Shown here piece by piece: positions 3,407 to 49,271 of a stretch of 49,271 bases of DNA (the stretch's first letter is position 1; each line of letters starts with the position of its first letter). The position numbers were made by a program, and so were the translations under genes. The stretch lies in the IMG/VR virus record IMGVR_UViG_3300030328_003125, positions 2,021 through 51,291 of that record. One strand, 5' to 3'. The notes beneath the pieces are model-generated. The model was not told the DNA's origin, searched no databases, and was given only the letters and a program-made list of their open reading frames with translations. Origin of the DNA: a virus.

Positions 3407-5630
3407 ATTATATCAAGTTGTAACTGGGGTTATACCTAAAAATGTTTTAACTAAAAAGAATAAAGCTAAATCATGGGTGTATGGTTATAATGAAAAATAT
3501 AATGTTATTATTATTTCTAAAACAGGTCAAATAGGGGAGATTATAAGTATTAGCGGATTAGACATAGCCTTGCCATTAGCCCCTGCAATTAGTCGTACAC
3601 GACCAAAAAACCCTAAAGAACAATATTGGAGTAGAACAGAATACCCTAAAGCTTTGCAAAAAATTCCTAGTATTTTTATTTGGAATGACATGCCATCTAC
3701 GTTTAAAAATAATTGGATTGATTATATTGAGCAAGAATTTGAACGAAGAGAAGATGGCCATTGGTTTTGGAATAACGGAGTTCAAACTTATATTACTGGC
3801 TCACATTATATGTATTTACAATGGACAAAAATTGATGTGGGGTTTCCTGATTTTAGAGAAGCAAACAGATTGTTTTATATTTATTGGGAAGCGTGCAAAG
3901 CAGATAATAGGAGTTTTGGAATTTGCTATTTAAAAATAAGACGTTCTGGATTTTCGTTTATGGGTTCCGAAGAATGTGCTAATATAGCTACTATATCGAA
4001 AGACTCTAGAATAGGTATACTATCCAAAACTGGAGCTGATGCTAAGAAAATGTTTACTGACAAAGTTGTTCCAATTACTAATAATTATCCCTTCTTTTTT
4101 AAACCTATTCAAGACGGAATGGATAAGCCTAAAACTGAATTAGCTTTTAGAGTACCAGCATCTAAAATTACCAAAAAAAACATGCATTTAGAAGATGATT
4201 TTGAAATGGATGGATTGGACACAACTATTGACTGGAAAAATACAGATGATAACTCATATGATGGAGAAAAACTTTTATTGTTAGTACATGATGAAAGTGG
4301 TAAATGGATTAAGCCTAATGATATATTAAATAACTGGAGGGTTACTAAAACTTGTTTAAGATTAGGTAGAAAAATTATTGGAAAATGTATGATGGGTTCT
4401 ACATCTAATGCATTAAGTAAAGGGGGTAGTAGTTTTAAAAAACTATATGAAGATTCAGATATTACTAAACGAAACGCAAATGGCCAAACTAAAAGCGGCC
4501 TATATAGTTTGTTCATACCAATGGAATGGAATATGGAAGGTTTTATTGATAAATACGGAATGCCTGTTTTATCTAACATTAAAAAACCCGTGTTAGGAAT
4601 TGATAATGAGCTTATTAAAGTAGGAGCTATTGATTATTGGCAAAACGAAGTTGATTCTTTAAAGCAAGACTCTAACGCTTTAAATGAATTCTACAGACAA
4701 TTTCCGCGTACTGAGTCTCACGCATTTAGGGATGAGTCAAAACAATCCTTATTTAATCTAACTAAAATATACCAGCAAATTGATTACAATGATTCTTTAA
4801 TTATAGGGCAGCATGTTAGTGTAGGAAATTTTAGATGGAAAAATGGAGTTAAAGATACAGAGGTGATTTTTAGTCCAGACGCGCGAGGTAGATTTTATTT
4901 AGGATGGATACCTGAATCGAATTTAAGAAACAGAATAATAAAAAAAAATGGAATTAATTACCCTGGTAATGAACACATTGGGTCATTTGGATGTGATAGT
5001 TATGATATTTCAGGCACGGTAGGAGGTAAGGGTTCTAATGGAGCTTTACACGGAATGACAAAATATAATATGGATAATGCTCCCAGCAACAGCTTTTTTT
5101 TAGAATATGTGGCTAGACCTCAAACCGCAGAAATATTTTTTGAAGATGTATTGATGGCATGTGTATTTTACGGAATGCCTATATTATGTGAGAACAACAA
5201 ACCTAGGCTTTTATATCATTTTAAAAATAGAGGATATAGGGGTTATAGTTTAAATCGACCTGATAAAACATACAACAAATTATCTAAAACAGAAAAAGAG
5301 TTGGGAGGCATCCCAAACTCGAGTGAAGATGTAAAGCAATCTCATGCGGCAGCTATAGAGTCATTTATAGAAAAATATGTAGGGATTGATTTACAAGGAA
5401 ACTACAGAGATAGTGATGAAATGGGAGATATGCTTTTTACTAGAACATTAGAGGATTGGGCTAAATTTGATATTAATAATAGAACAAAATTTGACGCATC
5501 AATTAGTTCAGGACTAGCTATTATGGCTAATCAAAAACACCTTTATACACCAGTTAAAAAACAATCAAAAATAAGCATTAACTTTGCAAGATATGCTAAC
5601 AGTGGAATATATAGTGAATTAGTACAATAA
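3384..5630 (+). CDS. terL: Terminase large subunit (packaging ATPase-nuclease)
   Basis: A 748-residue motor that translocates DNA into the prohead and cuts the concatemer. The segment GHWFWNNGVQTYITGSHYMY comes before the ATPase. The P-loop position reads KIRRSGFSF (RRSGFS 186-191), lacking the usual Lys after Gly. Walker B with the catalytic Glu is LLLLVHDE (D303, E304), and a motif III-like GSTSN follows. The C-terminal RNase H-like nuclease has GCDSYD (D538), a later CENN strand, and SEDVKQSHAAA supplying the last acidic residue. Start is TTG at 3384, overlapping the previous gene by 23 bases; no ATG lies near. The portal gene follows without a gap. Identity is firm. Confidence 0.9.
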   Translation: MQKETQNKLYQVVTGVIPKNVLTKKNKAKSWVYGYNEKYNVIIISKTGQIGEIISISGLDIALPLAPAISRTRPKNPKEQYWSRTEYPKALQKIPSIFIWNDMPSTFKNNWIDYIEQEFERREDGHWFWNNGVQTYITGSHYMYLQWTKIDVGFPDFREANRLFYIYWEACKADNRSFGICYLKIRRSGFSFMGSEECANIATISKDSRIGILSKTGADAKKMFTDKVVPITNNYPFFFKPIQDGMDKPKTELAFRVPASKITKKNMHLEDDFEMDGLDTTIDWKNTDDNSYDGEKLLLLVHDESGKWIKPNDILNNWRVTKTCLRLGRKIIGKCMMGSTSNALSKGGSSFKKLYEDSDITKRNANGQTKSGLYSLFIPMEWNMEGFIDKYGMPVLSNIKKPVLGIDNELIKVGAIDYWQNEVDSLKQDSNALNEFYRQFPRTESHAFRDESKQSLFNLTKIYQQIDYNDSLIIGQHVSVGNFRWKNGVKDTEVIFSPDARGRFYLGWIPESNLRNRIIKKNGINYPGNEHIGSFGCDSYDISGTVGGKGSNGALHGMTKYNMDNAPSNSFFLEYVARPQTAEIFFEDVLMACVFYGMPILCENNKPRLLYHFKNRGYRGYSLNRPDKTYNKLSKTEKELGGIPNSSEDVKQSHAAAIESFIEKYVGIDLQGNYRDSDEMGDMLFTRTLEDWAKFDINNRTKFDASISSGLAIMANQKHLYTPVKKQSKISINFARYANSGIYSELVQ

Positions 5631-12918: not shown

Positions 12919-13644
12919 ATGATTAACTCTGTTAGAAATACTGTATTAGCCATATTGAATAAAAACAACTATGGTTACATTTCTCCTAGCGATTTTAATT
13001 TATATGCTAAACAAGCTCAATTAGATTTATTTGAAGACTTGTTTTACGAATATAATTATCAAATTATTAAAGAGAATATGCGTCAATCAGGGACTGGTTA
13101 CGCTAACATTGCTAAAGGAATAGTAGAGGTAATTGATTTGTTTTCCACTACAGCTGTATTAGCTAATCCTGCCCCAGGAACAAATGAATACACAATGCCA
13201 GCTGATTATTATTTAATTAATAAAGTTTTATGTTATGATACAGCGGGAACTTCCCTTACGGGTGAAGCGGAGCGTGTAAGCCATAGTAAAATTACATTGT
13301 TAAATTCATCTAATTTAACTGCGCCTACTACCACGTACCCAGCATATACCACGCAAGCAGCTGTGATGACTGTGTATCCATCAACTATAAACGCAGCAGG
13401 TCAAGTTCAAGCACAATACATAAGGTACCCTGCCGACCCAGTATGGACATATTTACAAATAACTGGAGGAGAGCCTGTGTTTGACGGAAGTAATGTAGCT
13501 TATCAAGATTTTGAATTATCAGCTGATTATGAAACCGATTTAGTGGTAAAGATTTTACAATATGCAGGCGTATCAATAAGAGAAGCAGCTGTAGTTCAAT
13601 ATGCAAATACAGCAGAAATTAACGAAAATACATCAGAACAATAA
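12919..13644 (+). CDS. Head-tail connector (adaptor/ring-like) protein
   Basis: A 241-residue protein. The N-terminal helix bundle contains NNYGYISPSDFNLYAKQAQLDLFEDLFY, spread over residues 15-48, a pattern I associate with neck or ring proteins of Bacteroidota podoviruses. The middle is beta-type with PADYYLINKVLCYD, and the C-terminal half has ELSADYETDLVVKILQYAGVSI. Its length and position (after the capsid block, before the long tail-hub gene) fit an adaptor docking below the portal. The stop overlaps the next start in TAATG, so the two connector genes are coupled. Confidence 0.65.
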   Translation: MINSVRNTVLAILNKNNYGYISPSDFNLYAKQAQLDLFEDLFYEYNYQIIKENMRQSGTGYANIAKGIVEVIDLFSTTAVLANPAPGTNEYTMPADYYLINKVLCYDTAGTSLTGEAERVSHSKITLLNSSNLTAPTTTYPAYTTQAAVMTVYPSTINAAGQVQAQYIRYPADPVWTYLQITGGEPVFDGSNVAYQDFELSADYETDLVVKILQYAGVSIREAAVVQYANTAEINENTSEQ

Positions 13645-14567
13645 TGTCATACTTAAACGGATATCAATATTATACAAATTCAGGAACTGCACCGCAAGAT
13701 GCAAACTGGGGCTCATATCAATATGTTAGTCTTGATGATATAGTAAATAATTTTTTATTAATGTATGACGGAAATCATTCATTGGTTAATAATGAAGAAA
13801 GATATAAAATAAGATTTCACGCAAAAAGAGCAATACAAGAATTAAATTATGATGCATTTAAAGAAGTAAAAGCTTTAGAATTAAATGTAGGAGAAGATTT
13901 ACGATTTATATTACCTATAGATTATGTTAATTGGGTAAGGGTATCTATGTATAAAGATGGTGTATTAAGACCATTGACTGAAAACATACAACTCAACACA
14001 GCGTCTGCATACTTGCAAGACAGTGATAACAATTTATTGTTTGACCAGAATGGTAATATATTGCAGCCAGAATTTGCTACGATAGATGTAGACAGGTTAA
14101 GGGGAACAGAAAAAACTATGTACATAAACAACAACAGCGCTTATGATGGTCTTATGGGTTGGTGCTACAATGGATGCTGGTACTTTGACTTCCCTATTGG
14201 AGGGCATTATGGATTAAACACTGAAACGGCTAATGCTAATCCCACATTTAATATCAATAAAAAAAGCGGAACAATTACTTTTAGTTCAAACATAAAAGAA
14301 CAATTATGTATTCTTGAATATATATCAGACGGAATGGAAGGTGGTGTAGATGCAGATGTTACCGTTAATAAATTATTTGAAGATTATATATACGCTTATA
14401 TGCAATATGTTATTCTTAACTCTAAAATCGGTGTTCAAGAATATATTGTAACTCGTGCTAGAAAAAACAAATCAGCTTTATTAAGAAATGCAAAGATTAG
14501 ATTAAGCAATATTCATCCAGGGAGATTATTGATGAATATGAGAGGAAAAGATAAGTGGATAAAATAA
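13644..14567 (+). CDS. Head-tail connector/tail accessory protein
   Basis: A 307-residue protein following the first connector in a TAATG overlap. It shows ERYKIRFHAKRAIQELNYDA near residue 52, a beta region with FILPIDYVNWVRVSMYKDG (this strand pattern recurs in phage proteins of the P22 gp4/T7 gp11-like gatekeeper group), and a helical C-terminus rich in Arg/Lys (ARKNKSALLRNAKIRLS). It probably joins adaptor and tail hub. The gene order, rather than strong sequence similarity, carries this call. Confidence 0.62.
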   Translation: MSYLNGYQYYTNSGTAPQDANWGSYQYVSLDDIVNNFLLMYDGNHSLVNNEERYKIRFHAKRAIQELNYDAFKEVKALELNVGEDLRFILPIDYVNWVRVSMYKDGVLRPLTENIQLNTASAYLQDSDNNLLFDQNGNILQPEFATIDVDRLRGTEKTMYINNNSAYDGLMGWCYNGCWYFDFPIGGHYGLNTETANANPTFNINKKSGTITFSSNIKEQLCILEYISDGMEGGVDADVTVNKLFEDYIYAYMQYVILNSKIGVQEYIVTRARKNKSALLRNAKIRLSNIHPGRLLMNMRGKDKWIK

Positions 14568-24741: not shown

Positions 24742-27700
24742 ATGGACGAGTTAAGTTTTTCTGACTTATATCAGGTTTTAGAATCTCCTGATATGTTTAA
24801 TTCTCCCGAGCAATTAACCCAGTTTTTTGGTGGTGACTACTCTGTTGAAGATTTGTATACTGTAGTAGATAAAGAAACTTTTCCCACGCTACAATCTTTT
24901 CAAGAATTTTTTAATTTACCTATGACTAATCCAGCAGGGGAAGAAATGGATTTTTCTGAGCAAGACAGGGGTACAACAGGTGTTAAGGATTGGTTTAAAA
25001 AAGCGTCCGAAAAACTATTAGGCATGAACCCTGATGAAGATGCTAAAGCTAGAGAAAAAACTAGGGATAGTATTATAAGTGCAGAAACGGAGAAATATAA
25101 AAATGATAAAACTATTGATGTAATATCTGTATCAGGTGCTCCTATAAGAGATTACAAGGATGTAGTAAAAGAAGAAACTACAGAAGAATTTCTGCCTAAG
25201 AAAAAAAAAACAAAGAACGAGGTTGCTCAAGAATTAAGAACTTCTTTAGAAATAGAATATGACCCAAAAGATTATATTAAAAACTATCCTGCACCTAACG
25301 ACCAAGGTCTAAACCCTAAAGGTGAGCCTAAATTTGAAACAATGGAAGAATATCAAGCTTTCATTGAAGAAGAAGTAAATGTAGGTCTAAATCAAATAAT
25401 AGGTTTTGCTGGCGATAAGGGTGAGCAGATATTTGCGTTTGATGCTAATAGTAACGAAGGTTTTCAAAACAATGTATCAACTGCTCTAGATAACGTAGGA
25501 TTTACAGACACCGAAAATACCACTGAATTAAAACAATATCAAGACGATTATCAACAACGTCTTAGAAACACTATAGGTAAATATGGTTTTTTAATTGAAA
25601 AGCCTATATCTTTTAATATGGGTATGGGTAGTGTTAGTGAATTTTTTGACTTGACTAATTATACACCAGATGATTTAAAAAAAGAACTGCAAGGTAAAAG
25701 AGAGACAGTGGCTACAAAAAACCCTGACCAATACCTAACTATTACTTCTTTAGATGGAAGCGACCAGTTTAATTTAAATATAGCTAATCCAAGTAAAGAA
25801 GAATTAGCTCTGTTTGAAAAGTTTGTTAATGACAAAGCCCGTTTTCCTGAGGAGCCTAACCCTGAGGAAAGTAATATTGCTAAAGCGCTTGATATTAAAA
25901 ATGCGAGAACAGGCAAACGTTTTAATTTAGATACTGGAGATTATTCTTCCCATAAAATGATAAGTGTTGAAATAGATGGAAAGTATTATGCTATGCCTTC
26001 ACTGTATCCTAAAGACCCTAACGTACAATCTACTTATGAAGATAGGTGGGTAGAGTTCGACCCTGAAACTCAGCTAGACGAAATTATAGAAATGGCTAAT
26101 CAAAGAGGAGAAAAGTATGCGTTTGAAACACAAGAAGAAGCAGAAGCTTTTGCTGAAGGGGCATGGAAAGATTATAATACTGTAGACCTAGAAAAAGAAA
26201 GATTTTTTCAAGCACACGGTTTTGAAGATTATGATGGCATGATGGAAGCTGTTAATGATTATGATGCTATCCGAGACGAAATATTACTCATTAATGAAAT
26301 TCAAGGAATGGCTAGTCAGCAAGATTCGCAGTTTACAAAAAGAATTGGGAGAGCATTGGGTGTAGATGAAGAAACATTACTTGCAGCGGGAGGTGATGCA
26401 ATTCTAGGTGACTACGCTGCCCTAGACCCAAAGAGCAAAGTGGCTGTAGGGTACATTGACCGAGAGAACTTTCAGTTTGTCAAAGGCGAGAGACCTTGGT
26501 TGAGTAATGCTACACAGGTTTATGGCGGTAATGAACTTATTGTGGATAAAGCAACTATTGACAAATACCCTAAGCTTTTTGGTAAGGACGGCAGGATGAG
26601 GCGTGATTGGTCAGAAAGAAAAGTAGAGCTTGAGAAGATGAGAGACAATCTTTACAATATTACACAAGATAAAAAATTTCAAGATGTTAGTTTACAATGG
26701 GACTTAGAAGCAGCCAAAAGAAGAGAAGCATATACTATAGAGGCAATTAACACAAAAAACAATGCTAATATGGGCTTAAAAGCTTTAGACCAATTAAGTA
26801 TAGAGGCATTTGGTGTTAGTTCAAACGAATTAGAAAACTATCGCCTAAATAATTTAGCTAGTCTGGATGAGCAACAGATAGAAATAATGGACTATATAAC
26901 GTTAGCCAAGGGTGAGCTTGAGGCGCAAAAAATTTATGCTGCTGACCAATACATAATAAGTCAAACTTATTTAAATTCAAAATCAATAAAAGAAGCAAGG
27001 GGTGTGGTTTTAGAAGATTTCTGGCCTCAAGTAAAAAACGAATGGATAACTCGTGGAGAAAGAGGAAAAGCCGCAGAGTATTTGTTAGCAATGTCTCTGT
27101 TTAGTGAGAACCCTGTTAAGATGCAAGAGCTTATGGGTATGAGTAGAAAAGAGGTGGCGATAGAAGTTTCTAAACATTTAGAAAACTCTGTAACTAAGAG
27201 TGAAGGAATGAGTAAAGAAATGCTGGAGTGGAATAAAGCCAAAGGTTGGACTGAAGCAGCAAATGTCTTTATGGATAATCCGCTAGATATGGGTGCTTCA
27301 TTAGCAGCAGGTTCTTTTTCAGAAATGTTACCGTACGGTTTAAAAATTATCCCTGGCTTTGGTATTGTTGGTGGAACTACAGGATTCCTTGATGCTAAAT
27401 TGAGACGTAAAAGAGGCTTTAGAACTCGTGGTCAAACTAATTTTGGGCAAAAAGTTATAGGAGCAGGAAAGAAATTAAATCCTAAGGCTTGGGCAAGAGA
27501 AAATGCAGATTTAGTTATAGGAGCACTTGGTGGAACGGTAAAAGGAACAATGCTTGGTGGGTCTGCTACTATATTAGCAATGGAATACACCACCGCTATA
27601 TTTGAAGCAGCTACTGCAAATGGTTATGATATATTTGACGCAGAAGAAATGTTAATGGCAATGAATGACCCTAATGTGTGGAATGAAGGAAGAAGCGTAG

Positions 27701-30700
27701 GATTGGCTAGAGGTATACCTATTGCTGTTGTAGACTATTTAAGTGCACGTACAGCTGGTAAATTATTTATAGGCAAAGGAGGATTATTTCACGCGGGTTC
27801 AAGAGCAGAAGCTTGGAGAAGGGCTGGTTTAGTTATAGCAGAAAGAGCTATTGTTGACCCAGCAGCTGAAGCTTATGGTGAATATTTAGCGCAATCTGCT
27901 AATGCATTATTAAACGGTAAAACATTTAGAGCTGATGAAATAGCTCTAGAAGCTATAGGTGCGTTTGGAAGTAATACTAGTAATGCTGTTATGAATCTAA
28001 CTATGACTGCTTTAAAAAATGAACACATATTAAAAGCCAAACAAATGGGAGATACGCAGTACTATTCTGGCTCTACATTTAACAACGAACAAACCACTAA
28101 CTGGGCGAATAATATGCGTAAGATTGGGTATATTGATGGGAATACAGAAGAAAAGATTCAGAAAAATATTGGGTACAAAAGAGACGCTCAACTGTTGCTG
28201 GGATTAGGAGAGAAGGGTGTGGCTAGTACAGAGTTGTTGCCTGTGCAAACTAAAATGATGGATATTTTTAATGCTAAAAATCAACTCTCACAGAATGAAT
28301 TAACAAAACAATTATTTGGAAAACAAATAAGAGTCTTAAACCAAGAACTATCAAACCTTGCTACACAAAAACAAGTTGTTGCGGGTGAAGAAACTGAAGA
28401 GGCGAATAAAATTGTTAATGAAGTTTTAGGGAGAACAGAAGAAAGTCCAGGTGATTTACAATTAAGCCAAAGCCCCATAGCTGATTTATTTACTAATGAC
28501 CAAACATTTAACACAGAAGAAATAGCTTTTGATAAAGTTTCTTTGGAAGACATAAAAGAAAAGAGAATTCCAGGGGGCACAACCCGTGATGTATATGATA
28601 TAGGAAACAATAAAGTTATTAAAATTGCAAAGAACCCCAGAGGTTTACAACAGAACACATCGTTGAATTACGGGGATTTAAATATACTTGGGCCTTTTGT
28701 CCCTAATATATTTGAAAGAGGAGAAGATTATATAGTTGTAGAAAATGTACCTAGAAATGATAAAGCAGTAAGAGAATTTTTAAAACCTTTGCAGAAGTTT
28801 TCGCAAACAGATTTTGATAACAGAGGCAGTGAAGTTCAAGAAGTAATGGAGGAAATGGGATTGTCAGATTTTTTTAATTACGATGTGTTGTGGAATGATT
28901 TTAAATCTAGAAGAAACTGGGGTCAAAGAGAAAACGGAGAGTTTGTATTAGTAGATGAAGGTGCGTTAAATAAAAATGTAACAGCTAGGTCAGAAGTTCC
29001 TGCTTGGGCTAGAGAAGACTGGGAAAATATTAAAAGAAGAAGAAAAGGAGACGGGGGTGTTCAATTAAGTCAGGCTGTTGCTCCTTTAGAAAACACGCTA
29101 CTTGACTATCAATACGACAAAGAAACTGGTTATTTTCCTTCTACCATTGACAACGTTCAAAAACTTGAAATTATTGTCGAAAGATATGGATATGATTTAA
29201 TATCAACGCAAACAGAAAGAGGTGAACAAGCTGGATACTATTTAGCACCTGTAGGTTCCAGAATAAAACAAGACCCATTCAAAGGTAAAGAATTAACTAG
29301 AGTACAAAGACAAGAGCCTGATGCTAGTCCTGAAACTAGAGAAGAACTTGTAGCCTTGTTACAAAAAGCTTTCCCAGGCACGCAGGTATACGACAACCAA
29401 GAAGAATTTGAAAAAGCTCTTAAAGACCCAGGTGTAGTTAAAAGAACTACTAAAGATGGTTATGTAGCTTATGGAGCTACCCGTGATGGTAAAATATATT
29501 TAAACCCTGATGATAAAACATTAGAACTTCCTCTCCATGAATTTGGCCATATATATGTAGACTATTTAAAATCAAACCAATCGGGTGCAAAAGGAACAGC
29601 ATTATATAAGAGAGGATTACAGCTTATTACATCTACAGAAGATGGAGAGAAAATATACAATCAACAAGTAAAAATATATGGCGAAGGAGACCAGGCTAGG
29701 GAAGAGGCTTTAATTATATATATAGCGCAAGAAGGAGCAAAGAAAACTAAAGAGGCAGAAAGGCAAACCAAAAATAAATTATATAAGTGGTATGAAGCTC
29801 TTATGAACTTTATAAAAAATGCTTATTTAAAAGCTAAAGACTTTTTTAAATCACCAACCTTTGAACAAGACGTAAAAGGAATGTCTTTAACTGACTTTGT
29901 GAATATGGCGTTAGGAGATTTATTGGGAGGTGAAGTAGTTGTAGAAGATGTGATTGTAGATGAAACAGGTCAAACTAAACTAGCACTGTCTCAGCAAAAA
30001 AAAGTGCCACGTGGTAGTAATATGGTGGAAGTGGTAACTGAAGCTAGAGAGTTAGGTATATCAGATGACCAAATTAAAGCTGTGTTAGTTGAAAGAGTTA
30101 ATCGTGGTGAAAACATAGGCGTGCGTGGGGAAGAAAGGTTTACCCGTCAAGATATAAATGATGCCTTCACAGCATTACCAACTGAGATAGTTTCACTACC
30201 CCCAGCATTTAGAAATATTGAGGGAGGCTTCTTTAGAGGTATGGCTTTATTTACTGAAGTACAAAACATTGTTAACAAAGCTATCGGGGTTGGTACCACA
30301 ACCGAAGTAAGAAAAAGACACATAGATTCTGTAAAGAAAAGATTTCCTAAAGCTACTAAGGGTAAATCTACCGCACAAATATTAAGATTATTTCCAATAG
30401 ATGAAACCATATTAGAAGGTTTAAAATCACCAGCAGAAATTCGTAAGATAGGTTTAGACGCATTGAAAGCAAGTCCTCTTTATGCTGCTCAATCACCTAA
30501 AGTTCAAGAACAATTAGTTGTCGATTACGACAAAGAGTTAGGTATAAGAGCAAACAGAAACGTACAACTTGAGGTTAACAAAATAAAAAACACTTTGCGT
30601 GCTAGAAAACAAGGGGCTAAAGATGTTGCAACAGCTAAAAAAGATTTAGCAAAACTTATAAATTTAATATTTCCTAAAACAGACTTAATAAACAGAAGCG

Positions 30701-33700
30701 ATTTAACTTACATGAATAATCGTATAGCTGCTGTTAATGATGCCAACCAACTTGCAGAAATAGAAAACGTATTAAGCCGTATTGCTAAAGTTGAAGATAG
30801 AATTAAAAAAGATTTAATTTCTAAGATAAAAAAACTTATTCAAAATCAATCTAAAACTAATGTAACGGCAACAGGAAAAACCCGTAAAGGTGCGCAAATA
30901 GATGTCACAACAAAAGAGTTTTTTGTAGCAGCTAAAGCTTTACTTGACACCTACGATACACCTCAAGGTTTAGAGATTTTTGCAAAAGAAATGAATGAGT
31001 TAGCTAATTTAGAAAACACAATATCTAAACTAAGAGATAAAGAAAATAAAACAAGAGAAGACAGGGAACTAATAGCCAGGGCCGATGCGTTTAGTGTGCT
31101 GGGAGATTTACATCAAATGAATTTAGCTGAGGTAGAACAGTTGTTTGATGATTTAAAAAATAAAAGACAATTAGGAAGAAGTTTACATCAAGCTGAACAA
31201 GAGGAAAGAAAAGCAGAGCTGGCAAAGTTAGAACAAGAAGCTGATGAGCAAATTAAAAAAACAAATAAAGATTTATTTTTCGAAGATGGTACCCCGAAAA
31301 ATCAAGACACTTTAAATAGTGAAGGAAGAAATGCGTTGGCGGGATACAAGAAGAGTGGCTTTGTAAATTCAATGAAAAAACTACAAAAAAACTTTTTAGA
31401 CTTTGATAATTTTAAAAGAGTGATGCAGGAAATGAAGTTAAACGCATATGATATGATGGCAATGGGGCACGTTTTATATTCTTCATTAGATAACAGAAAT
31501 GGTAAATTTTTATTAAACAATATCTATTATAGACTAACTGATGCAGAAGAAAATTATAACTCTATTTTCTTTGATTTTCGTGACAGATTAACTGAAATAG
31601 CTCATGAAGTTCTGGGTAAAAAGAAGTATAGTAATATCCTGGCAGAAAGGTTTGGTTTAAAATGGAATGATGTAGACGCTTACCAATATATAACTGTTTT
31701 GGCTGATAATGGTAAAACGATATTAATAGAGGGTGTTAACCCCCAAAATAAATTATCAACTCAAAACACGCCTCTAACCACTAGTGAAGCTATGCGTATA
31801 ATTGCTTTATGGAAAAACCCTGAGAGTAAAATTATTTTGCAAAATGATGGGTTTACACAAGAAAAAATTAACAAACTAGAAAAGTTTATCGGTAAAGATT
31901 TAACAACTTTTGTAGATAAAGTAGTTGGCTTTTTAACCGATGAAGTATATCCAATTATAAATGCTAAACATCGAGAGATATATGGAGTGAACTTGCCGTT
32001 CAGAGAATTGTATTTTCCTAGAGCAACACAACCTATTATTGGGCAGCCTAAAAGTTACGGCTTTGATGTTGACGCACAATCTAATTTAAACGCTATTCGC
32101 TCTATGTTGCCTGGAAGCTTGTCAGAAACGGCTAGCCCAAATAACCTGAGAATGATATTAACCGATATGAATTTCTTTAATACTTTAGATAATTACATAG
32201 ATGATGTAGCTAGGTGGACGGGTTATGCAACCGATGTAAAAATTATAGAAGGAATTATCTCTATGCCATCAGTAGAAGCGTTGCTTTCTACTACTGGAAT
32301 GAAAGAAATGATTATATATAATATAAATGTAGCTATAGACCCATCAGGAAAAACACGAACCCCTAATAAAACCAGAGCTATTTCAAATGGTATAAGTATG
32401 GTTACTAGTTATTTCTTATCACTACATCCGATGCAGTACTTAAAGCAAGCGTCTTCAGTTGTTATGGCTTACCCATTATATAATAATCCCAAGTTTAAAG
32501 TATTTAAACAAACAAAAAAAGCAGGGGATACTCTTTTTACAGGTAGCGGTATTAAAAATATCGCCACTAACACCGTAGAATTATTATGGAATACAGCAGC
32601 TTTTGCATTAAACGAACCTGCAAACATATCTGCATTTATGACGCAAATAGTAAAAGAGTTTGCTCCAGGGAACTATGCAAAAAACAAAGAACTCGCTAAA
32701 AAAATATCAGCTACTTTCAGAAAAAGAAATTGGGAGTCTAAATCAGGAAATTTGTACATGTTGTATACAGGTAGAGAAAGAGCTGATTTAATAGACAGCA
32801 CTCCCGAAGGGATTGAAAGAAAAAAGCGTGCTCAAAGTTATGATATTATAAAAAAAGCATTTGGTTTCTTTACTTCAGAAGGAGATTTAGCTGGGGCTAT
32901 GGGGTATATTATTGTATACAAAAATATGATAGCCAATGGGTTTACACATGAAGAAGCGTTAAGAGTATTTAACGATTATAATTTAACTAATCAGTCACGT
33001 AGAGGTATAGATAAGCCAGGGCTACAATCCCAAAAAAGTGGTACTGCACAAGTGTTTTCAGCATTTACAACCACCCCAATACAAATTCTTAACAATACTT
33101 ATTTAAGTTTTATGAATTTCTTTAAAGACGTATTTAGAAATGTAACCCCTTCTGGAAAAGACTTTAACACGTTTGGGTGGGTAGGGTTTATTTCTGTTAT
33201 GCTCTTCCATGCGGTTTCATCTATGTGGTTATTATTGCTAGGAGACAAAGACGATAGAGAAAAGTTTTGGGAACAAGTTTTAAAGTGGCACGGTATACAA
33301 GCAATGATGGATGCTATACCTATGGTGAATGAAACTATTTCGGCATTTATAAATGAAGTTGAAGGAACACCTTATAAAAAAGGAAAAGACTCTACAACGA
33401 TGCCTCCAGTTGAAGTTGCGGAAGAATTAGGTAAGTGGGTTAGAAATGAGGAAGGCAGAAATATATTTGAACAAACCCTTAAAGCACTTTATGAGTTTAC
33501 TCAATTCAGAGTAAGAGCTCAGTTTGATATTTTTGAATATCCATTACAGCAAGCAGTTGAGGGGGAGAACCATTGGGTATATGATTTCCTACGAATGATG
33601 CGTGTACCTAAAAGCAGAATACCTGCGCGCTTCCTTCCAAAACAAGGTGGTGAAGGTCGAAGAAAGACTTATAAGAAAAAGAAAAGAACGAGACAAAAAT

Positions 33701-33702
33701 AA
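24742..33702 (+). CDS. Giant internal virion protein with kinase-like and zincin-like domains
   Basis: A 2986-residue protein, the largest here, at the end of the virion module where T7 gp16-like ejection proteins lie. Seen in order: an N-terminal adaptor; a small domain at about 403-480 (ISVEIDGKYYAMPSLYP ... FETQEEAEAFAEGAW) found in many phage virion proteins; hydrophobic Gly-rich segments at about 870-960; a protein-kinase-like domain (TTRDVYDIGNNKVIKIA with K1294, D1381 in NYDVLWND, N1392, VDEG with D1405); a zincin-like metallopeptidase motif HEFGH at 1599-1603 with a downstream EEALIIYIAQ; long coiled regions (about 1850-2250); a conserved late domain with GVNLPFRELYFPR; and a membrane segment near 2810. 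LSQ tripeptides at 1241, 1442 and 1749 flank the two enzyme-like domains. The C-terminus is very basic. The enzyme activities are inferred from motifs. Confidence 0.75.
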   Translation: MDELSFSDLYQVLESPDMFNSPEQLTQFFGGDYSVEDLYTVVDKETFPTLQSFQEFFNLPMTNPAGEEMDFSEQDRGTTGVKDWFKKASEKLLGMNPDEDAKAREKTRDSIISAETEKYKNDKTIDVISVSGAPIRDYKDVVKEETTEEFLPKKKKTKNEVAQELRTSLEIEYDPKDYIKNYPAPNDQGLNPKGEPKFETMEEYQAFIEEEVNVGLNQIIGFAGDKGEQIFAFDANSNEGFQNNVSTALDNVGFTDTENTTELKQYQDDYQQRLRNTIGKYGFLIEKPISFNMGMGSVSEFFDLTNYTPDDLKKELQGKRETVATKNPDQYLTITSLDGSDQFNLNIANPSKEELALFEKFVNDKARFPEEPNPEESNIAKALDIKNARTGKRFNLDTGDYSSHKMISVEIDGKYYAMPSLYPKDPNVQSTYEDRWVEFDPETQLDEIIEMANQRGEKYAFETQEEAEAFAEGAWKDYNTVDLEKERFFQAHGFEDYDGMMEAVNDYDAIRDEILLINEIQGMASQQDSQFTKRIGRALGVDEETLLAAGGDAILGDYAALDPKSKVAVGYIDRENFQFVKGERPWLSNATQVYGGNELIVDKATIDKYPKLFGKDGRMRRDWSERKVELEKMRDNLYNITQDKKFQDVSLQWDLEAAKRREAYTIEAINTKNNANMGLKALDQLSIEAFGVSSNELENYRLNNLASLDEQQIEIMDYITLAKGELEAQKIYAADQYIISQTYLNSKSIKEARGVVLEDFWPQVKNEWITRGERGKAAEYLLAMSLFSENPVKMQELMGMSRKEVAIEVSKHLENSVTKSEGMSKEMLEWNKAKGWTEAANVFMDNPLDMGASLAAGSFSEMLPYGLKIIPGFGIVGGTTGFLDAKLRRKRGFRTRGQTNFGQKVIGAGKKLNPKAWARENADLVIGALGGTVKGTMLGGSATILAMEYTTAIFEAATANGYDIFDAEEMLMAMNDPNVWNEGRSVGLARGIPIAVVDYLSARTAGKLFIGKGGLFHAGSRAEAWRRAGLVIAERAIVDPAAEAYGEYLAQSANALLNGKTFRADEIALEAIGAFGSNTSNAVMNLTMTALKNEHILKAKQMGDTQYYSGSTFNNEQTTNWANNMRKIGYIDGNTEEKIQKNIGYKRDAQLLLGLGEKGVASTELLPVQTKMMDIFNAKNQLSQNELTKQLFGKQIRVLNQELSNLATQKQVVAGEETEEANKIVNEVLGRTEESPGDLQLSQSPIADLFTNDQTFNTEEIAFDKVSLEDIKEKRIPGGTTRDVYDIGNNKVIKIAKNPRGLQQNTSLNYGDLNILGPFVPNIFERGEDYIVVENVPRNDKAVREFLKPLQKFSQTDFDNRGSEVQEVMEEMGLSDFFNYDVLWNDFKSRRNWGQRENGEFVLVDEGALNKNVTARSEVPAWAREDWENIKRRRKGDGGVQLSQAVAPLENTLLDYQYDKETGYFPSTIDNVQKLEIIVERYGYDLISTQTERGEQAGYYLAPVGSRIKQDPFKGKELTRVQRQEPDASPETREELVALLQKAFPGTQVYDNQEEFEKALKDPGVVKRTTKDGYVAYGATRDGKIYLNPDDKTLELPLHEFGHIYVDYLKSNQSGAKGTALYKRGLQLITSTEDGEKIYNQQVKIYGEGDQAREEALIIYIAQEGAKKTKEAERQTKNKLYKWYEALMNFIKNAYLKAKDFFKSPTFEQDVKGMSLTDFVNMALGDLLGGEVVVEDVIVDETGQTKLALSQQKKVPRGSNMVEVVTEARELGISDDQIKAVLVERVNRGENIGVRGEERFTRQDINDAFTALPTEIVSLPPAFRNIEGGFFRGMALFTEVQNIVNKAIGVGTTTEVRKRHIDSVKKRFPKATKGKSTAQILRLFPIDETILEGLKSPAEIRKIGLDALKASPLYAAQSPKVQEQLVVDYDKELGIRANRNVQLEVNKIKNTLRARKQGAKDVATAKKDLAKLINLIFPKTDLINRSDLTYMNNRIAAVNDANQLAEIENVLSRIAKVEDRIKKDLISKIKKLIQNQSKTNVTATGKTRKGAQIDVTTKEFFVAAKALLDTYDTPQGLEIFAKEMNELANLENTISKLRDKENKTREDRELIARADAFSVLGDLHQMNLAEVEQLFDDLKNKRQLGRSLHQAEQEERKAELAKLEQEADEQIKKTNKDLFFEDGTPKNQDTLNSEGRNALAGYKKSGFVNSMKKLQKNFLDFDNFKRVMQEMKLNAYDMMAMGHVLYSSLDNRNGKFLLNNIYYRLTDAEENYNSIFFDFRDRLTEIAHEVLGKKKYSNILAERFGLKWNDVDAYQYITVLADNGKTILIEGVNPQNKLSTQNTPLTTSEAMRIIALWKNPESKIILQNDGFTQEKINKLEKFIGKDLTTFVDKVVGFLTDEVYPIINAKHREIYGVNLPFRELYFPRATQPIIGQPKSYGFDVDAQSNLNAIRSMLPGSLSETASPNNLRMILTDMNFFNTLDNYIDDVARWTGYATDVKIIEGIISMPSVEALLSTTGMKEMIIYNINVAIDPSGKTRTPNKTRAISNGISMVTSYFLSLHPMQYLKQASSVVMAYPLYNNPKFKVFKQTKKAGDTLFTGSGIKNIATNTVELLWNTAAFALNEPANISAFMTQIVKEFAPGNYAKNKELAKKISATFRKRNWESKSGNLYMLYTGRERADLIDSTPEGIERKKRAQSYDIIKKAFGFFTSEGDLAGAMGYIIVYKNMIANGFTHEEALRVFNDYNLTNQSRRGIDKPGLQSQKSGTAQVFSAFTTTPIQILNNTYLSFMNFFKDVFRNVTPSGKDFNTFGWVGFISVMLFHAVSSMWLLLLGDKDDREKFWEQVLKWHGIQAMMDAIPMVNETISAFINEVEGTPYKKGKDSTTMPPVEVAEELGKWVRNEEGRNIFEQTLKALYEFTQFRVRAQFDIFEYPLQQAVEGENHWVYDFLRMMRVPKSRIPARFLPKQGGEGRRKTYKKKKRTRQK

Positions 33703-46184: not shown

Positions 46185-46205
46185 AGAGGTTAGCTAGTAA
46201 CCTCT
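46185..46205 (-). terminator. Hairpin at end of cyclotransferase gene (weak terminator or attenuator)
   Basis: Perfect 8-bp stem AGAGGTTA/TAACCTCT with a 5-base loop, overlapping the stop codon of the cyclotransferase gene. The leftward RNA continues GCTTTGTTTAC, a poor T run, so termination would be partial. Confidence 0.5.
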
Positions 46206-46885
46206 TGCTCTGAATACATTTCATTACACACACTGCAATGATATTTTTGATTGCTGATTTCAGTTTCATCATAGTAAACTTCTTCAAAGCAAATGTTACA
46301 ATACTTTGTATTGTCATCTTCTTTGTCTGCTATTGTTGACAATGAAGAGAATAAATCCCTACGCTCGTGGTAACGAGTAGTAGGCTCGTAAGTGTACTGC
46401 TCATAGGTTGGCTTATCAGCGTATGAGTATCGCCTTGTACCAAAGCTAAATTTGGGTGTAATTGGAAAGCTTTTATGATACTTCATATTGGTTGATGAGA
46501 TACTATCGTATCTATTCCAGTTATTGTTTATAAAGTATATCCAAGCATTTACTATCGTTCCATTGTTTAGCTTGATAGGTAGTTGCCTTCTGCGATAAAA
46601 ATTCGGGTGTCCCTCTAGCGAATCAAGAGCAGAAAAGGTGTCATTGTTTACCTTATATACTTCGACTTCTACGTGGTGTCCACTTCCGCGTTTATCTAAC
46701 AAGTAAGGCAGCCCGCTGATTACTAGCGGGTACCTATCTTTTGTCGTTCCTTTGTTTACAAATCGTTGGCCATACAATAATCTGTGATTGCCCCCGCCTT
46801 TCTTTAAAGTACCATACACTGCTACAACATTGTGCTGTAACACATTGGGTTTAGAAAACCAAACTCCATTGTGTTTTATCCACAT
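46190..46885 (-). CDS. Gamma-glutamylcyclotransferase (AIG2/GGCT-like) with C-terminal zinc ribbon
   Basis: A 231-residue frame. VVAVYGTLKKGGGNHRLL (about 20-37) is the GGCT/AIG2 glycine loop, and LDSLEGHPNFYRRR supplies the catalytic Glu (E91). The family releases 5-oxoproline from gamma-glutamyl amines or peptides. The C-terminus is a zinc-ribbon (C196, C199, C217, C220). The first 18 residues (MWIKHNGVWFSKPN) do not belong to this fold but to the end of a glutamine amidotransferase: reading upstream, the frame stays open for 27 codons to a TGA that ends the amidotransferase frame. The start at 46885 is therefore doubtful and the two frames are probably one bifunctional protein. Confidence 0.8.
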   Translation of the reverse strand: MWIKHNGVWFSKPNVLQHNVVAVYGTLKKGGGNHRLLYGQRFVNKGTTKDRYPLVISGLPYLLDKRGSGHHVEVEVYKVNNDTFSALDSLEGHPNFYRRRQLPIKLNNGTIVNAWIYFINNNWNRYDSISSTNMKYHKSFPITPKFSFGTRRYSYADKPTYEQYTYEPTTRYHERRDLFSSLSTIADKEDDNTKYCNICFEEVYYDETEISNQKYHCSVCNEMYSEQEVTS

Positions 46886-46966
46886 TTCTTTGTTGTAGAT
46901 TTCGTATTGTCGGTTGCGTTTGTTGTAAGTAACAAATCTAGAATCGTGCTGACCTAGTACTGCTCT

Positions 46967-47320
46967 TCATTGCTGCCTAGCAATACCGCCTAGTTCAATA
47001 GCAAGTTGCTTGCTATCACACATATCTTGTGTTCCATACCCGCGTATAGTTCCATTGTGCATAAGCAGTTCGTTACTATTATTACCGCATATAAATGGGT
47101 GGGTGTTTGCTTTGTTAATTTTCCCTTTAGTTGCTAATCTGAAATGAGCGATATAGGGTCTGTCTGTGTCTAGTACTTTCCATTCTTTAGACTGGTAGTA
47201 TTCGACTTCATTGGTATCCAGAAAAATTACGCCTAGTCCGTGAGGATTGATGCGTGAAGAATTTTTAAGTATCTCTGGCGATACTTTTTTGTCTTTCGAC
47301 TTTACAATAATTATACACAT
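46967..47320 (-). CDS. Class-II glutamine amidotransferase domain, cut by an in-frame TGA
   Basis: A 117-residue frame with an N-terminal nucleophile Cys2 (MCIIIV), NPHGLGVIFLD, AHFRLATKGKINKANTHPF (R61, the substrate-binding region) and LLMHNGTI (N89, G90), then CDSK: all motifs of the Ntn-type GAT-II fold, which frees ammonia from glutamine or transfers its amide nitrogen. The usual domain is longer. The expected end (SRFVTYNK ... HNGVWFSK) is present in the same frame after the TGA at 46967-46969, and leads into the cyclotransferase. It is the first gene after the promoter at 47384. Readthrough, recent inactivation or a sequencing error are possible. Confidence 0.8.
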   Translation of the reverse strand: MCIIIVKSKDKKVSPEILKNSSRINPHGLGVIFLDTNEVEYYQSKEWKVLDTDRPYIAHFRLATKGKINKANTHPFICGNNSNELLMHNGTIRGYGTQDMCDSKQLAIELGGIARQQ

Positions 47321-47383
47321 AGTTTATTTGTTTGTGAGGTTTGTACTTCTAGTATTGTGTACGCTGACCTCTGATTATTTAGA

Positions 47384-47415
47384 CAAAGATAAGAAAACAT
47401 TTAGACATAACCAAA
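47384..47415 (-). promoter_or_regulatory. Leftward Bacteroidota promoter (TTTG, 20 bp, TATCTTTG)
   Basis: On the minus strand TTTG (plus 47412-47415), 20 bases, TATCTTTG (plus 47384-47391). The inner ATGTCTAAAT and the following TCTAAAT are shared with the promoter at 44679. It lies 64 bases before the amidotransferase ATG. Confidence 0.78.
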
Positions 47416-47480
47416 CAATTTATGCGAAATTTTATTTCGTGTATTCTAGAAGACCGCTTCCAAATGTCTTCTTTGAATTT

Positions 47481-47690
47481 GTGTCTCGTGTTTTTTTTTG
47501 TGTCTCGTGTTTTTTTTTACAGCTCCTCCGCTTCCAGCTTCTTTGCTTCTGTATTTGTAAATCCCCTCTGCTTCTTTGCTTCCGCTCCCCATGCGTCTGC
47601 CATGCGTCTGCCATGCGTCTGCCAATCCCGCGGGATTAGCAAAGGAGGTTCGGCAAAAAAAATTCGGTTCGGTGAAAAAAAATTCGGTTC
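47481..47690. repeat. Cluster of short direct repeats and a palindrome
   Basis: GTGTCTCGTG plus nine T occurs twice in tandem (47481-47499, 47500-47518). GCTTCTTTGCTTC is at 47537 and 47570. CATGCGTCTGC occurs three times in tandem (47590, 47601, 47612). AATCCCGCGGGATT (47624-47637) is a perfect palindrome. AAAAAAAATTCGGTTC is at 47655 and 47675. The cluster looks like an origin or a regulator-binding array; it has no spacer pattern of a CRISPR. Confidence 0.85.
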
Positions 47691-47695
47691 AAGGC

Positions 47696-47722
47696 AAAAA
47701 AAAAGACCGCATAAAGCGGCCT
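47696..47722 (-). terminator. Intrinsic terminator after 231-residue gene (leftward)
   Basis: On the minus strand AGGCCGC/GCGGTCT (one G-U pair) with a TTTAT loop is followed by eight to nine T. It lies 20 bases after the stop of the 231-residue gene. Confidence 0.9.
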
Positions 47723-47742
47723 CTCTTTTTGGTCGTGTACGA

Positions 47743-48438
47743 CTAATTTGTGTGAACGTATCTCTGTTCAGTTGGGATTTTTATTTCCTCAACATTTACA
47801 AAAACTCTCTTGCTACATTGTGTAAGTCTGTATAAATGTTGATTCGAAATTATGCTGCTCCCTCTAGCCCTATTGTAGTCATAAAGCGTTTTACCATTTA
47901 CCCATTTTCCAGAATCAGCATAAAAGGTTAGGGCCATTGCACTTAATCTATAATATTTTATGATATAAATTAAAAAATCTCTATCCCTCTCATCGTATCT
48001 TATTCTAGCGTGCATAAGGCGGTTAGCTTGTCTAATAGCATTGTCAATTAAGGAGTAAACCTTTTCCACAGTATGAATTTTAGGCCAGTTTAATTCTAAA
48101 AATTCTAAACTAGTGTTAATTCCGAATCGCAATTCGTTGTGTTCTGTAGGTGTGAAAAGCATTTCTATTCCTTTAAATTGCGCTTTGTTTAGCCTTAAAC
48201 TTCGGCTCCCCCACGTATCTCTCGCTAAAGGAAACGAAAGTCCTTCTGCGGCCTCTAAACCATTGTTGCTACGCCTTTGACTATCAGATAAAGTTTTAAC
48301 AAATTTACATCTTAACTTTTGTTCGTTGTTTGGTGTAATTTGTTGAAAGTAAAATGAATTCAAAACTTCTTGTAAGTTTCTTCTTTGCGCGCCAGTTAAT
48401 TTAATACTGGTTAACATTTTGTTTGTGTGTGTACTCAT
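47743..48438 (-). CDS. Protein of unknown function between amidoligase and amidotransferase
   Basis: A 231-residue soluble protein. The N-terminal part is helical and basic (LTGAQRRNLQEVLNSFYFQQ), the middle has NELRFGINTSLEFLELNWPK, and the C-terminal half has helices with VYSLIDNAIRQANRLMHARI, RDFLIYIIKYYRLSAMAL and a basic end. I recognise no domain, no P-loop and no cysteine-based site. Because it lies directly downstream of the amidoligase and ends in a terminator, it may be the protein partner or acceptor of that enzyme; this is inference from place. Confidence 0.6.
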   Translation of the reverse strand: MSTHTNKMLTSIKLTGAQRRNLQEVLNSFYFQQITPNNEQKLRCKFVKTLSDSQRRSNNGLEAAEGLSFPLARDTWGSRSLRLNKAQFKGIEMLFTPTEHNELRFGINTSLEFLELNWPKIHTVEKVYSLIDNAIRQANRLMHARIRYDERDRDFLIYIIKYYRLSAMALTFYADSGKWVNGKTLYDYNRARGSSIISNQHLYRLTQCSKRVFVNVEEIKIPTEQRYVHTN

Positions 48439-48513
48439 AATATTTGTTTTTAAATTGTTTAATCTGTTTCATCGTTTTCGAATCATCAGGCACGACATTC
48501 ATCGCACTACAGA

Positions 48514-48540
48514 GGGCAGTTTATACAGCTGCCCAGCTGT
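48514..48540. repeat. Overlapping dyads between amidoligase and 231-residue gene
   Basis: GGGCAG/CTGCCC (48514-48519 with 48529-48534) and ACAGCTG-CC-CAGCTGT (48525-48531 with 48534-48540) overlap, so the two hairpins exclude each other. They lie just after the amidoligase stop, within a 107-base gap. No T run follows in the leftward sense; a weak attenuator or a regulator site is possible. Confidence 0.5.
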
Positions 48541-48545
48541 GTCAA

Positions 48546-49271
48546 TCATCTTTTGCGTGCAAAAGAGATTTCCCCTCGTTTCCACAATCGAAACGCTGTC
48601 GGTGTTGTTATCGATTTCACAACCGCTAACTCATCGCGGTGCATTCTAGCTGGATTTTGGTATCTGTTCCAAATAAAAGGCAATACAACGTGGTTAATTT
48701 TGTTAGTCATTAACATTTTTCTAAAGTGTTTTGATAACTCAATTAACATTTCAACCTTGCCCTCATCGTTGTTATACATCGATAATAAAGTTGGTTTTAA
48801 CTTCTTAATCAATTTTGCATAACTCCCTCTATCATTAACAGCAAAATCAACAATAATTTGCATTAATTTATATCTGTTAATCATTTGTTTTACGCTAGTA
48901 AATCGGCTCCATAATCTAAACTCCAGTAAACCTAATCTTGATTTCTCAAATATTGGCTGGTATTTTGTACCTCTAGCAGCGTTGATATGGTCTGATATAG
49001 ATTCGCTAGTTGTTCTCGCTGTAACGTTATTGCAGCAAAACTGGTTAGCTAATCTCTTGCGGTTAAGAGCGTAAATGATTGCGTAATAAGGCCTCATCAG
49101 TTCATTTAATTCACTACTGGTATGATTTGCGCTAGCAATAGTCATATGGCCGCCACATCTGTAAGACCCATAGTCATTCATTTCATCTGACTGGCTGTAA
49201 TTTTCATCGATTAAATACTTTGCTTTATGCATTAAATCAAATATTTTATTACGCCATTTGCTCATTGGGAT
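48546..49271 (-). CDS. Amidoligase, C-terminal part (5' partial at right edge)
   Basis: The frame is open to the edge (the Met at 49265 is preceded by further sense codons), so the N-terminus with the Glu-rich GxE(hx)E part is outside. The visible 241 residues contain DYGSYRCGGHMTIASAN, corresponding to the 'CGxHhHh' strand of the glutamine-synthetase-like amidoligase family (Amidoligase_2), then KYQPIFEKSRLGLLEFRLWS, corresponding to '...K...hEFRhxxGT', and a helix KQMINRYKLMQIIVDFAV. The family joins an amine to a carboxylate using ATP. With the nearby amidotransferase and cyclotransferase it suggests a gamma-glutamyl or peptide-amide modification pathway. The substrate is unknown. Confidence 0.7.
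   Translation of the reverse strand: MPMSKWRNKIFDLMHKAKYLIDENYSQSDEMNDYGSYRCGGHMTIASANHTSSELNELMRPYYAIIYALNRKRLANQFCCNNVTARTTSESISDHINAARGTKYQPIFEKSRLGLLEFRLWSRFTSVKQMINRYKLMQIIVDFAVNDRGSYAKLIKKLKPTLLSMYNNDEGKVEMLIELSKHFRKMLMTNKINHVVLPFIWNRYQNPARMHRDELAVVKSITTPTAFRLWKRGEISFARKR

Follow-up and report, generated by a model that had tools for sequence, protein, structure and literature searches.

We consider it very likely, from sequence comparison, that a viral gene for a bifunctional enzyme carries a single, selected UGA inside its GAT-II (amidotransferase) domain and yields the full enzyme by readthrough of this codon. The gene lies at the right end of the window, by which we mean the whole stretch of 49,271 nucleotides that was analysed; it makes up the right-hand portion of a virus record of 51,291 bases (IMG/VR record IMGVR_UViG_3300030328_003125, positions 2,021 to 51,291) and stops within a gene for an amidoligase. 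Leftward from that end follow the C-terminal part of the amidoligase, an open reading frame (ORF) of 231 residues, a GAT-II ORF of 117 residues, and another ORF of 231 residues that holds a GGCT (cyclotransferase) domain and a zinc ribbon. As far as comparison with relatives goes, the last two are one gene in one reading frame and not two genes, and what is new here is that this GAT-II-GGCT gene has an in-frame UGA that is conserved and was acquired repeatedly. Its parts are the following.

46190..47320, minus strand: the GAT-II - GGCT - zinc-ribbon gene, a continuous frame of 376 codons plus a final TAA, with one internal TGA; a single coding sequence (CDS) in the phage genome MW202828.
46967..46969, minus strand: the in-frame TGA, codon 118; a tryptophan (Trp) site in nearly all relatives.
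46871..47320, minus strand: the GAT-II domain, about codons 1-150, with invariant residues and with fold matches to GFAT-1/GlmS.
46511..46825, minus strand: the GGCT domain, GGACT-like, codons 166-270, with a Pfam match, an invariant Glu236 and fold matches.
46226..46300, minus strand: the C-terminal four-Cys zinc-ribbon-like part, codons 341-365, with invariant cysteines.
46967-47320 and 46190-46885, minus strand: the products of ORF calling, a GAT-II ORF and a GGCT ORF, split at the TGA.

An earlier note on this DNA had placed GAT-II and GGCT enzymes leftward here, with a zinc ribbon beside the GGCT domain, and had taken them for separate genes. The enzymes are indeed present: within 46190-47320 the GGCT part matches Pfam GGACT at 5e-24 and the GAT-II core matches GATase_4 at 1e-6, and in 59 aligned proteins Cys2, R61, N89, G90, D102 and Glu236 are invariant, as are the four cysteines that bear out the ribbon (341, 344, 362 and 365 of the joined protein). 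The best solved structures for the GGCT part are mouse and human GGACT, 30-34% identical, and the GAT-II part finds GFAT-1/GlmS as fold matches. The division into two genes, however, gives way to one frame with an internal TGA, and in MW202828 (ctfjg026), a circular phage genome of 60.9 kb from Manatee Spring, the homologous region is one CDS of 405 residues with TGG at codon 118. In an AlphaFold2 model of the joined protein (predicted local distance difference test, pLDDT, 83.8), codon 118 falls within a predicted helix, 115-122.

All eight contigs of the first search have TGA at codon 118. Three of our searches for relatives gave the best 80 only, of 238, 254 and 223. Of 81 genes (the best 80 of 238 relatives plus MW202828), 62 have TGG at the codon and 19 have TGA. 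A wider set was drawn by a motif search over the collected loci, which does not include genes without the motif, and was collapsed on the first 450 bases (294 matches gave 144 distinct genes, of which two were dropped as too short). In these 142 distinct genes, codon 118 is TGG in 126, TGA in 12, ATC in two, ATG in one and TTA in one, the last three codons coming from some of the most distant genes, which may be misaligned or lie outside the family. Relatives with TGA and relatives with TGG can be aligned gap-free across the codon. Stops before codon 200 occur in 14 of the 142 genes, and all 14 are TGA followed by A, with not a single TAA or TAG. The main TGA clade comprises 20 viral contigs, each under its own IMG id (by contig name), which have a 23-base stretch behind the TGA in common; it includes repeats of one virus population, for example eight contigs of the type L021-L028. 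Its TGA was read in 19 contigs within the 81-gene set and, separately, in the twentieth, L178, a further TGA lineage whose gene start is missing and which was left out of the counts.

The gene appears to be constrained along its whole length. Seven representatives of the main clade, 57-90% identical as proteins, are strongly diverged at synonymous sites (synonymous divergence, dS, of 1.31 before the TGA), and for the ratio of nonsynonymous to synonymous change (dN/dS) our own script, which counts by a simple pathway approach, gives 0.105 ahead of the TGA, 0.122 between it and the GGCT domain, 0.177 within that domain and 0.138 for the tail. Behind the TGA, residues 128-142 form strands of GAT-II in the AlphaFold2 model (block pLDDT 95-96), and R128, F129, N133 and N143 are invariant in the 59 proteins. 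Between the TGA and codon 175, no ATG, GTG or TTG common to all seven lineages was found. Since selection acts on both sides, since strands and invariant residues of GAT-II lie behind the TGA and since the lineages have no start in common there, the protein has probably been translated across codon 118 for a long time.

In-frame TGAs have also been acquired elsewhere in the family. L201 and L202, from a distant clade close to phage C75C1, have TGA at codon 118 (CAA TGA AAG), and five stop-free neighbours (L199, L204, L197, L211 and L218) have Trp there. L208 and L209 have Trp at codon 118 and a TGA at codon 40, a column where relatives have Arg, Lys, Glu, His or Leu. At least two changes at codon 118 are needed on the tree, and the TGA at codon 40 is an additional event. 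In L208 and L209, the catalytic Cys2 lies before the TGA and the other catalytic motifs, HFR, NGT and D, lie after it, such that an active enzyme would need one continuous chain. A Pfam-type amidoligase is found 742 bases (L201 contig) and 1852 bases (L208 contig) upstream of the gene, which argues for the same module, though the ligase differs.

The observations that weigh against readthrough are set out here and in the next two paragraphs, each beside the alternative that it would serve. The TGA could be a true stop, with GAT-II and GGCT as two proteins, the second of which would be made from an internal start or by termination-reinitiation. ORF calling does yield two ORFs, of which the second begins with ATG in the window, and GTG codons, which are possible internal starts, stand at codon 160 in four of the seven lineages and at codon 168 likewise in four; at codon 146, ATG or TTG is found in three of the seven. 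However, the codon that starts the window's GGCT ORF reads ATG in the window lineage alone, this ATG being missing in the six other representatives, and no start is common to all seven. Furthermore, the stretch behind the TGA belongs to the GAT-II fold and is constrained, and the TGA at codon 40 in L208 and L209 would leave a second protein without Cys2. We thus hold two separate proteins to be unlikely. In-frame stop-hopping, rather than readthrough, could also take place at codon 118; according to an excerpt of PMC5009743, it could mimic readthrough.

A nonsense mutation, a pseudogene or an assembly error would likewise put a stop in frame, and single in-frame TGAs do exist in other genes of single contigs. 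The L022 contig (12,144 residues compared) has an additional one in a structural gene, a homologue of the gene at window 13644-14567 (L337, minus strand, position 5488 of the reverse complement, CCT TGA TTA; one contig, and not a Trp site). The amidoligase of 3300020043_000840 has another (CTT TGA CGA) between its acidic motifs (L136:446-1261; the contig is also L055 and L270), again in one contig and at a position where most relatives listed have Ser or His. Some in-frame TGAs in these phages may thus be ordinary mutations. The count of origins is affected as well, in that L201 equals L202 over the stretch compared and L208 is nearly the same as L209, so that each pair stands for one event, and in that the two main TGA sub-clades are joined with a support of 41 (Shimodaira-Hasegawa-like approximate likelihood ratio test, SH-aLRT) in the tree of whole proteins, which omitted the partial L004 and L061. 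In a second tree, made from the first 175 residues of 138 genes with TGG or TGA, the same join has an SH-aLRT of 97; if the join were wrong, there would be more origins. As to codon 118 itself, a chance lesion is very improbable, since 20 contigs, all with different IMG ids, share the TGA at this codon, since purifying selection acts before and behind it, and since its origin is repeated and the stops are solely UGA.

The sequence behind the TGA was considered for signals that might assist its decoding, and one candidate is the following.

46935..46957, minus strand: the 23-base stretch, codons 122-129, a candidate stimulatory element that is near-identical in the main TGA clade.

This stretch, CTAGGTCAGCACGATTCTAGATT, begins nine bases after the TGA, is nearly invariant in the main TGA clade and shows the highest synonymous conservation of 151 scanning windows in the gene. 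A permutation of the maximal window equals this peak in 235 of 5000 cases, and one of four TGG control groups has an equal peak, perhaps from codon bias, which weakens the case for a synonymous constraint specific to TGA. The A after codon 118 is present in 105 of the 126 TGG genes as well; it is thus mostly inherited and is weak evidence for a selected context. A small hairpin, also starting nine bases after the TGA, can be drawn in the consensus of all seven lineages. It is without covariation (its seven pairs never vary), its energies are ordinary and its single-sequence z-scores run from 0.35 to -1.80, mostly near zero, such that a strong RNA structure behind the TGA is unsupported; no Rfam match was found near the TGA. 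That hairpin might in principle guide the insertion of selenocysteine at the UGA. However, relatives have Trp at the site and no Cys codon occurs there among the 142 genes, the hairpin is weak and the region lacks an Rfam match, and the column of codon 40 is variable; of all the explanations weighed, selenocysteine strikes us as the most far-fetched.

UGA might also be read as Trp everywhere, through an altered code or a suppressor tRNA in the phages or their hosts. Phages with reassigned stop codons are known, and the residue replaced at codon 118 is Trp. An alignment of MW202828 with the window and L003, a 58.9-kb viral contig that is 100% identical to the window over the match, spans 12,666 residues (a total in which part is counted twice, because window and L003 overlap) and contains 74 Trp-to-Trp pairs and two Trp-to-stop pairs, which are codon 118 in each copy; two further stops of a first pass both lie in antisense ORFs. 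Between C75C1 and the L201 contig (5,375 residues) there is one in-frame stop, codon 118, plus one at the alignment end, and between C75C1 and the L208 contig (2,209 residues) there is one, codon 40. No in-frame stop was found between window/L003 and the L017 contig (6,980 residues), and the L009 contig (7,830 residues) shows one stop at the alignment end and one in an antisense ORF. Codon 118 is thus the sole Trp-to-stop site in the alignments of MW202828 with window and L003 and of C75C1 with the L201 contig, and codon 40 of L208 and L209 is not a Trp site at all. In the 19 TGA genes (two of them partial), 88 Trp codons are TGG and 19 are TGA, one TGA per gene. TGA also still ends genes: it is the terminator in four of 47 genes counting GAT-II-GGCT, and the frame behind the other three closes within 7-12 codons. 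A suppressor tRNA was not found in the window, in 21 loci or in 11 further loci (some of which overlap, and whose completeness is not established); the sole tRNA found is a tRNA-Met (CAT) in L009/L010, one lineage of the TGA clade, and loci of the same contigs (L009:6110-6183), and there is none in the window. To judge from these alignments, a general code change is not seen in the stretches compared, and reading of UGA as Trp throughout is very unlikely. The case resembles stop-reassigned crAss-like phages in having an in-frame stop. Those phages have many recoded codons and often suppressor tRNAs, whereas here one codon is affected and a suppressor tRNA was not found in the contigs examined.

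This leads us back to readthrough, which we infer from these comparisons together with the residue inserted, the level of product and its chemistry. Most ribosomes would stop at the UGA and release an incomplete GAT-II fragment of 117 residues that lacks the last strands, and a minority would insert an amino acid, most likely Trp via host tRNA-Trp, and go on to make the full enzyme. Trp is the likely residue because relatives have Trp at this position and because UGA followed by A is known to be misread by tRNA-Trp. In E. coli, this tetranucleotide is prone to such misreading (excerpt of PMC5289835, citing Engelberg-Kulka 1981), and E. coli and Salmonella insert Trp at UGA according to the part of PMC7918605 drawn on here. 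The UGA would act as a translational attenuator, with the level of the enzyme low and possibly regulated. Were UGA to serve as well as UGG in these genes, one would expect their other Trp codons to drift to TGA; they stay TGG, which suggests that a reduced or conditional output would be the point of the arrangement. One may speculate that the level is tied to the status of release factor 2 or tRNA-Trp in infection; infection stage and toxicity of the free amidotransferase are further, equally speculative candidates for what is being tuned.

In the coat gene of coliphage Q-beta, a single leaky UGA gives rise to a minor extended product, as proposed here, and the residue inserted is Trp. However, Q-beta is an RNA phage and its stop stands at the end of a complete protein, whereas in the present case the codon falls within a domain of a tailed-phage enzyme. 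UGA readthrough of the Q-beta coat gene is treated in PMC8310308 (excerpt). Orthologous stops and low dN/dS, on which we rely, have also served as evidence for readthrough of bacterial in-frame stops (excerpt of PMC7918605). That survey, as far as the excerpt goes, deals with bacterial genomes, and many of its cases in mobile elements may be pseudogenes, while here one codon recurs across distant phage clades.

With respect to the module in which the gene resides, a GAT-II gene lies downstream of the amidoligase, on the same strand and within 4.5 kb, in 68 of 73 loci (from the best 80 of 254 loci, some of them from one virus population; seven of the 80, with less than 1.5 kb downstream, were not counted). 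The grouping of amidoligase, GAT-II and GGCT made in the earlier note thus holds. Its proposal that this is an undescribed system does not, since such cassettes are described for phiEco32-, RIO-1- and HP1-like podoviruses (excerpts of PMC5498523 and PMC10580990); the enzyme set is of a kind already described in phages. In RIO1-like podoviruses the GGCT/GAT-II/ligase cassette is listed as peptidoglycan modification genes (excerpt of PMC5498523), a role that the literature predicts, and for the amidoligase and GATase of phiEco32 a possible role in superinfection exclusion has been put forward (excerpt of PMC10580990, citing Iyer et al. 2009). The RIO-1, HP1 and phiEco32 cassettes have genes for GGCT, GAT-II and a COOH-NH2 ligase or amidoligase together, as here. 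What differs here is that one fused gene combines GAT-II, GGCT and a zinc ribbon, that this gene has an in-frame UGA and that there is one amidoligase, which lies outside the Pfam model. The RIO-1 cassette also holds an ATP-grasp enzyme; RimK and Dala_Dala_lig_C were unmatched in G000, G009 and G005 (contigs that may be incomplete, other ATP-grasp families not having been tried). C75C1 and MW202828 have a fused GAT-II-GGCT gene near an amidoligase, as here, and in both it is open, with Trp at the site; the C75C1 ligase is a Pfam Amidoligase_2 enzyme, unlike the window ligase. GGACT acts on gamma-glutamyl-epsilon-lysine. To judge from their families, the enzyme and the neighbouring glutamine-synthetase-like (GS-like) amidoligase would together make and edit links of the gamma-glutamyl or amide type, perhaps in the peptidoglycan of the host, which is what has been put forward for the phiEco32 and RIO-1 cassettes.

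Between the two genes lies a further ORF.

47743..48438, minus strand: the 231-residue protein, an ORF with homologues in part of the clade.

From its pattern of conservation this ORF looks like a real gene: homologues of about 44% identity exist in two further sub-lineages and, among the loci collected at that point, it is confined to the groups window/L003/L004, L005/L006 and L007/L008. No family match below an E-value of 0.2 was found. The earlier note had cast it as the acceptor or scaffold of a new tagging chemistry, to which the linkage of amidoligase, GAT-II and GGCT would lend itself. However, it is found in part of the clade only: other members of the TGA clade lack it, as does MW202828, which has no gene between ligase and GAT-II; the gap between the two is 284 bases in L017, 357 in L009/L010 and 451 in L025-L027, all without it. 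Such cassettes being described already, a new tagging chemistry built on this protein is highly doubtful. In the intergenic stretch between the 231-residue gene and GAT-II (window 47589-47740), a terminator-like hairpin with a T run can be seen by eye, and the stretch also holds repeats of a AAAAAAAATTCGGTTC unit and a 14-base unit that occurs three times at a spacing of 11.

The ligase itself is cut by the end of the contig.

48546..49271, minus strand: the C-terminal 241 residues of a GS-like amidoligase; its N-terminus lies past the contig end and is found in L003:9626-10726.

The N-terminus, which the earlier note had proposed to look for in a longer contig, is supplied by L003, and it has the acidic residues. 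The full-length ligase has 366 residues with the motifs GMEVEK, ERDGSC, CGGH and EFR, and E82, E84, E109, D111, E117, H167, E242 and R244 are invariant in 51 ligase relatives (L136, L138 and L168 were left out of this alignment because of stops within the matched stretch, near its end in L138 and L168). Whereas the profile searches matched GGACT and GATase_4, no Pfam amidoligase match was obtained for the window part or for the full-length form, and none of the 51 relatives matches Amidoligase_2 (PF12224) at E up to 1; positive controls do match it, namely the C75C1 ligase (3.5e-30) and the ligases of G001 and G003. As regards Pfam, one outcome that the earlier note had named as refuting its reading, the lack of an amidoligase profile match, has thus come about. 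Alignment of the ligase profile (hhalign) reached significance neither against two ligases of RIO-1 nor against that of C75C1, though in the last case several motifs are paired in order. An AlphaFold2 model of the ligase (pLDDT 84.2) gives a weak best E of 0.023 in Foldseek, where the 50 rows listed are, by title, glutamine synthetases, YbdK and its Salmonella relative, and the depupylase Dop, one row (a chain of a Dop-CoaX-Pup complex) being unsure. In VIA-align the model reaches Z of 7.6-8.7, and all 50 rows listed belong by title to the glutamine-synthetase superfamily; chance alone often gives a best Z of 7-8, while 4-5 is the usual value at rank 50. Because of the acidic motifs in the L003 N-terminus and the predicted fold, the ligase is probably a GS-like amidoligase outside the Pfam family model, so that the amidoligase core read in the earlier note is real, if without a Pfam match. 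Directly upstream of it, L003:8931-9599 encodes a conserved protein of 222 residues that is also present in L006 and L009. Downstream of the ligase stop, at window 48500-48546, a GGGCAG/CTGCCC inverted repeat is visible by eye, a possible attenuator or terminator, and a translated stretch similar to that of this region lies behind the L005 ligase.

A terminal repeat of 8-399 bases was not found at the ends of the record. A circular contig with the ligase N-terminus at its left end was considered and ruled out, since there is no terminal repeat and a tail-type gene lies there. A scan of genome contigs gave two loci, both TGG at codon 118, in metagenome-assembled genomes named Cytophagales and Flavobacteriales; this makes a host among the Bacteroidota likely for the wider group, though these loci are not from the TGA clade. 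Elsewhere in the window, 24742-33702 is a single ORF of 2986 residues, parts of which match a 3859-residue ORF of MW202828. L003:5514-7389, on the strand opposite the ligase, holds GroEL (by a PHROG match) and a small neighbour, the counterpart of an MW202828 gene annotated as chaperonin 10 kDa.

Among the matches listed in a search of the literature on readthrough, recoding and in-frame stops, which did not cover most subscription journals, there was no report of the gene treated here. Control of this kind is easily overlooked in phage genomes, because ORF calling splits such genes in two. According to an excerpt of PMC5009743, regulation of release factor 2 through readthrough of an in-frame stop is unknown in any organism, which would make a regulatory UGA in a DNA phage worthy of note. 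Going further, UGA readthrough may be a recurrent and selected form of control over a phage enzyme that edits cell wall or gamma-glutamyl links, with a leaky UGA placed within the catalytic GAT-II domain in at least three lineages and an output at a few percent of initiations or at times when release factor 2 is limiting or tRNA-Trp abundant, a proposition on which our belief and our doubt are about equal. If the readthrough reading is true, a tailed DNA phage would set the level of an enzyme by a single leaky UGA, that is, by a one-codon translational attenuator that would need neither a suppressor tRNA nor a change of code. The family itself would offer a natural contrast for the role of this UGA, as most relatives have TGG at the codon and a few clades have TGA.

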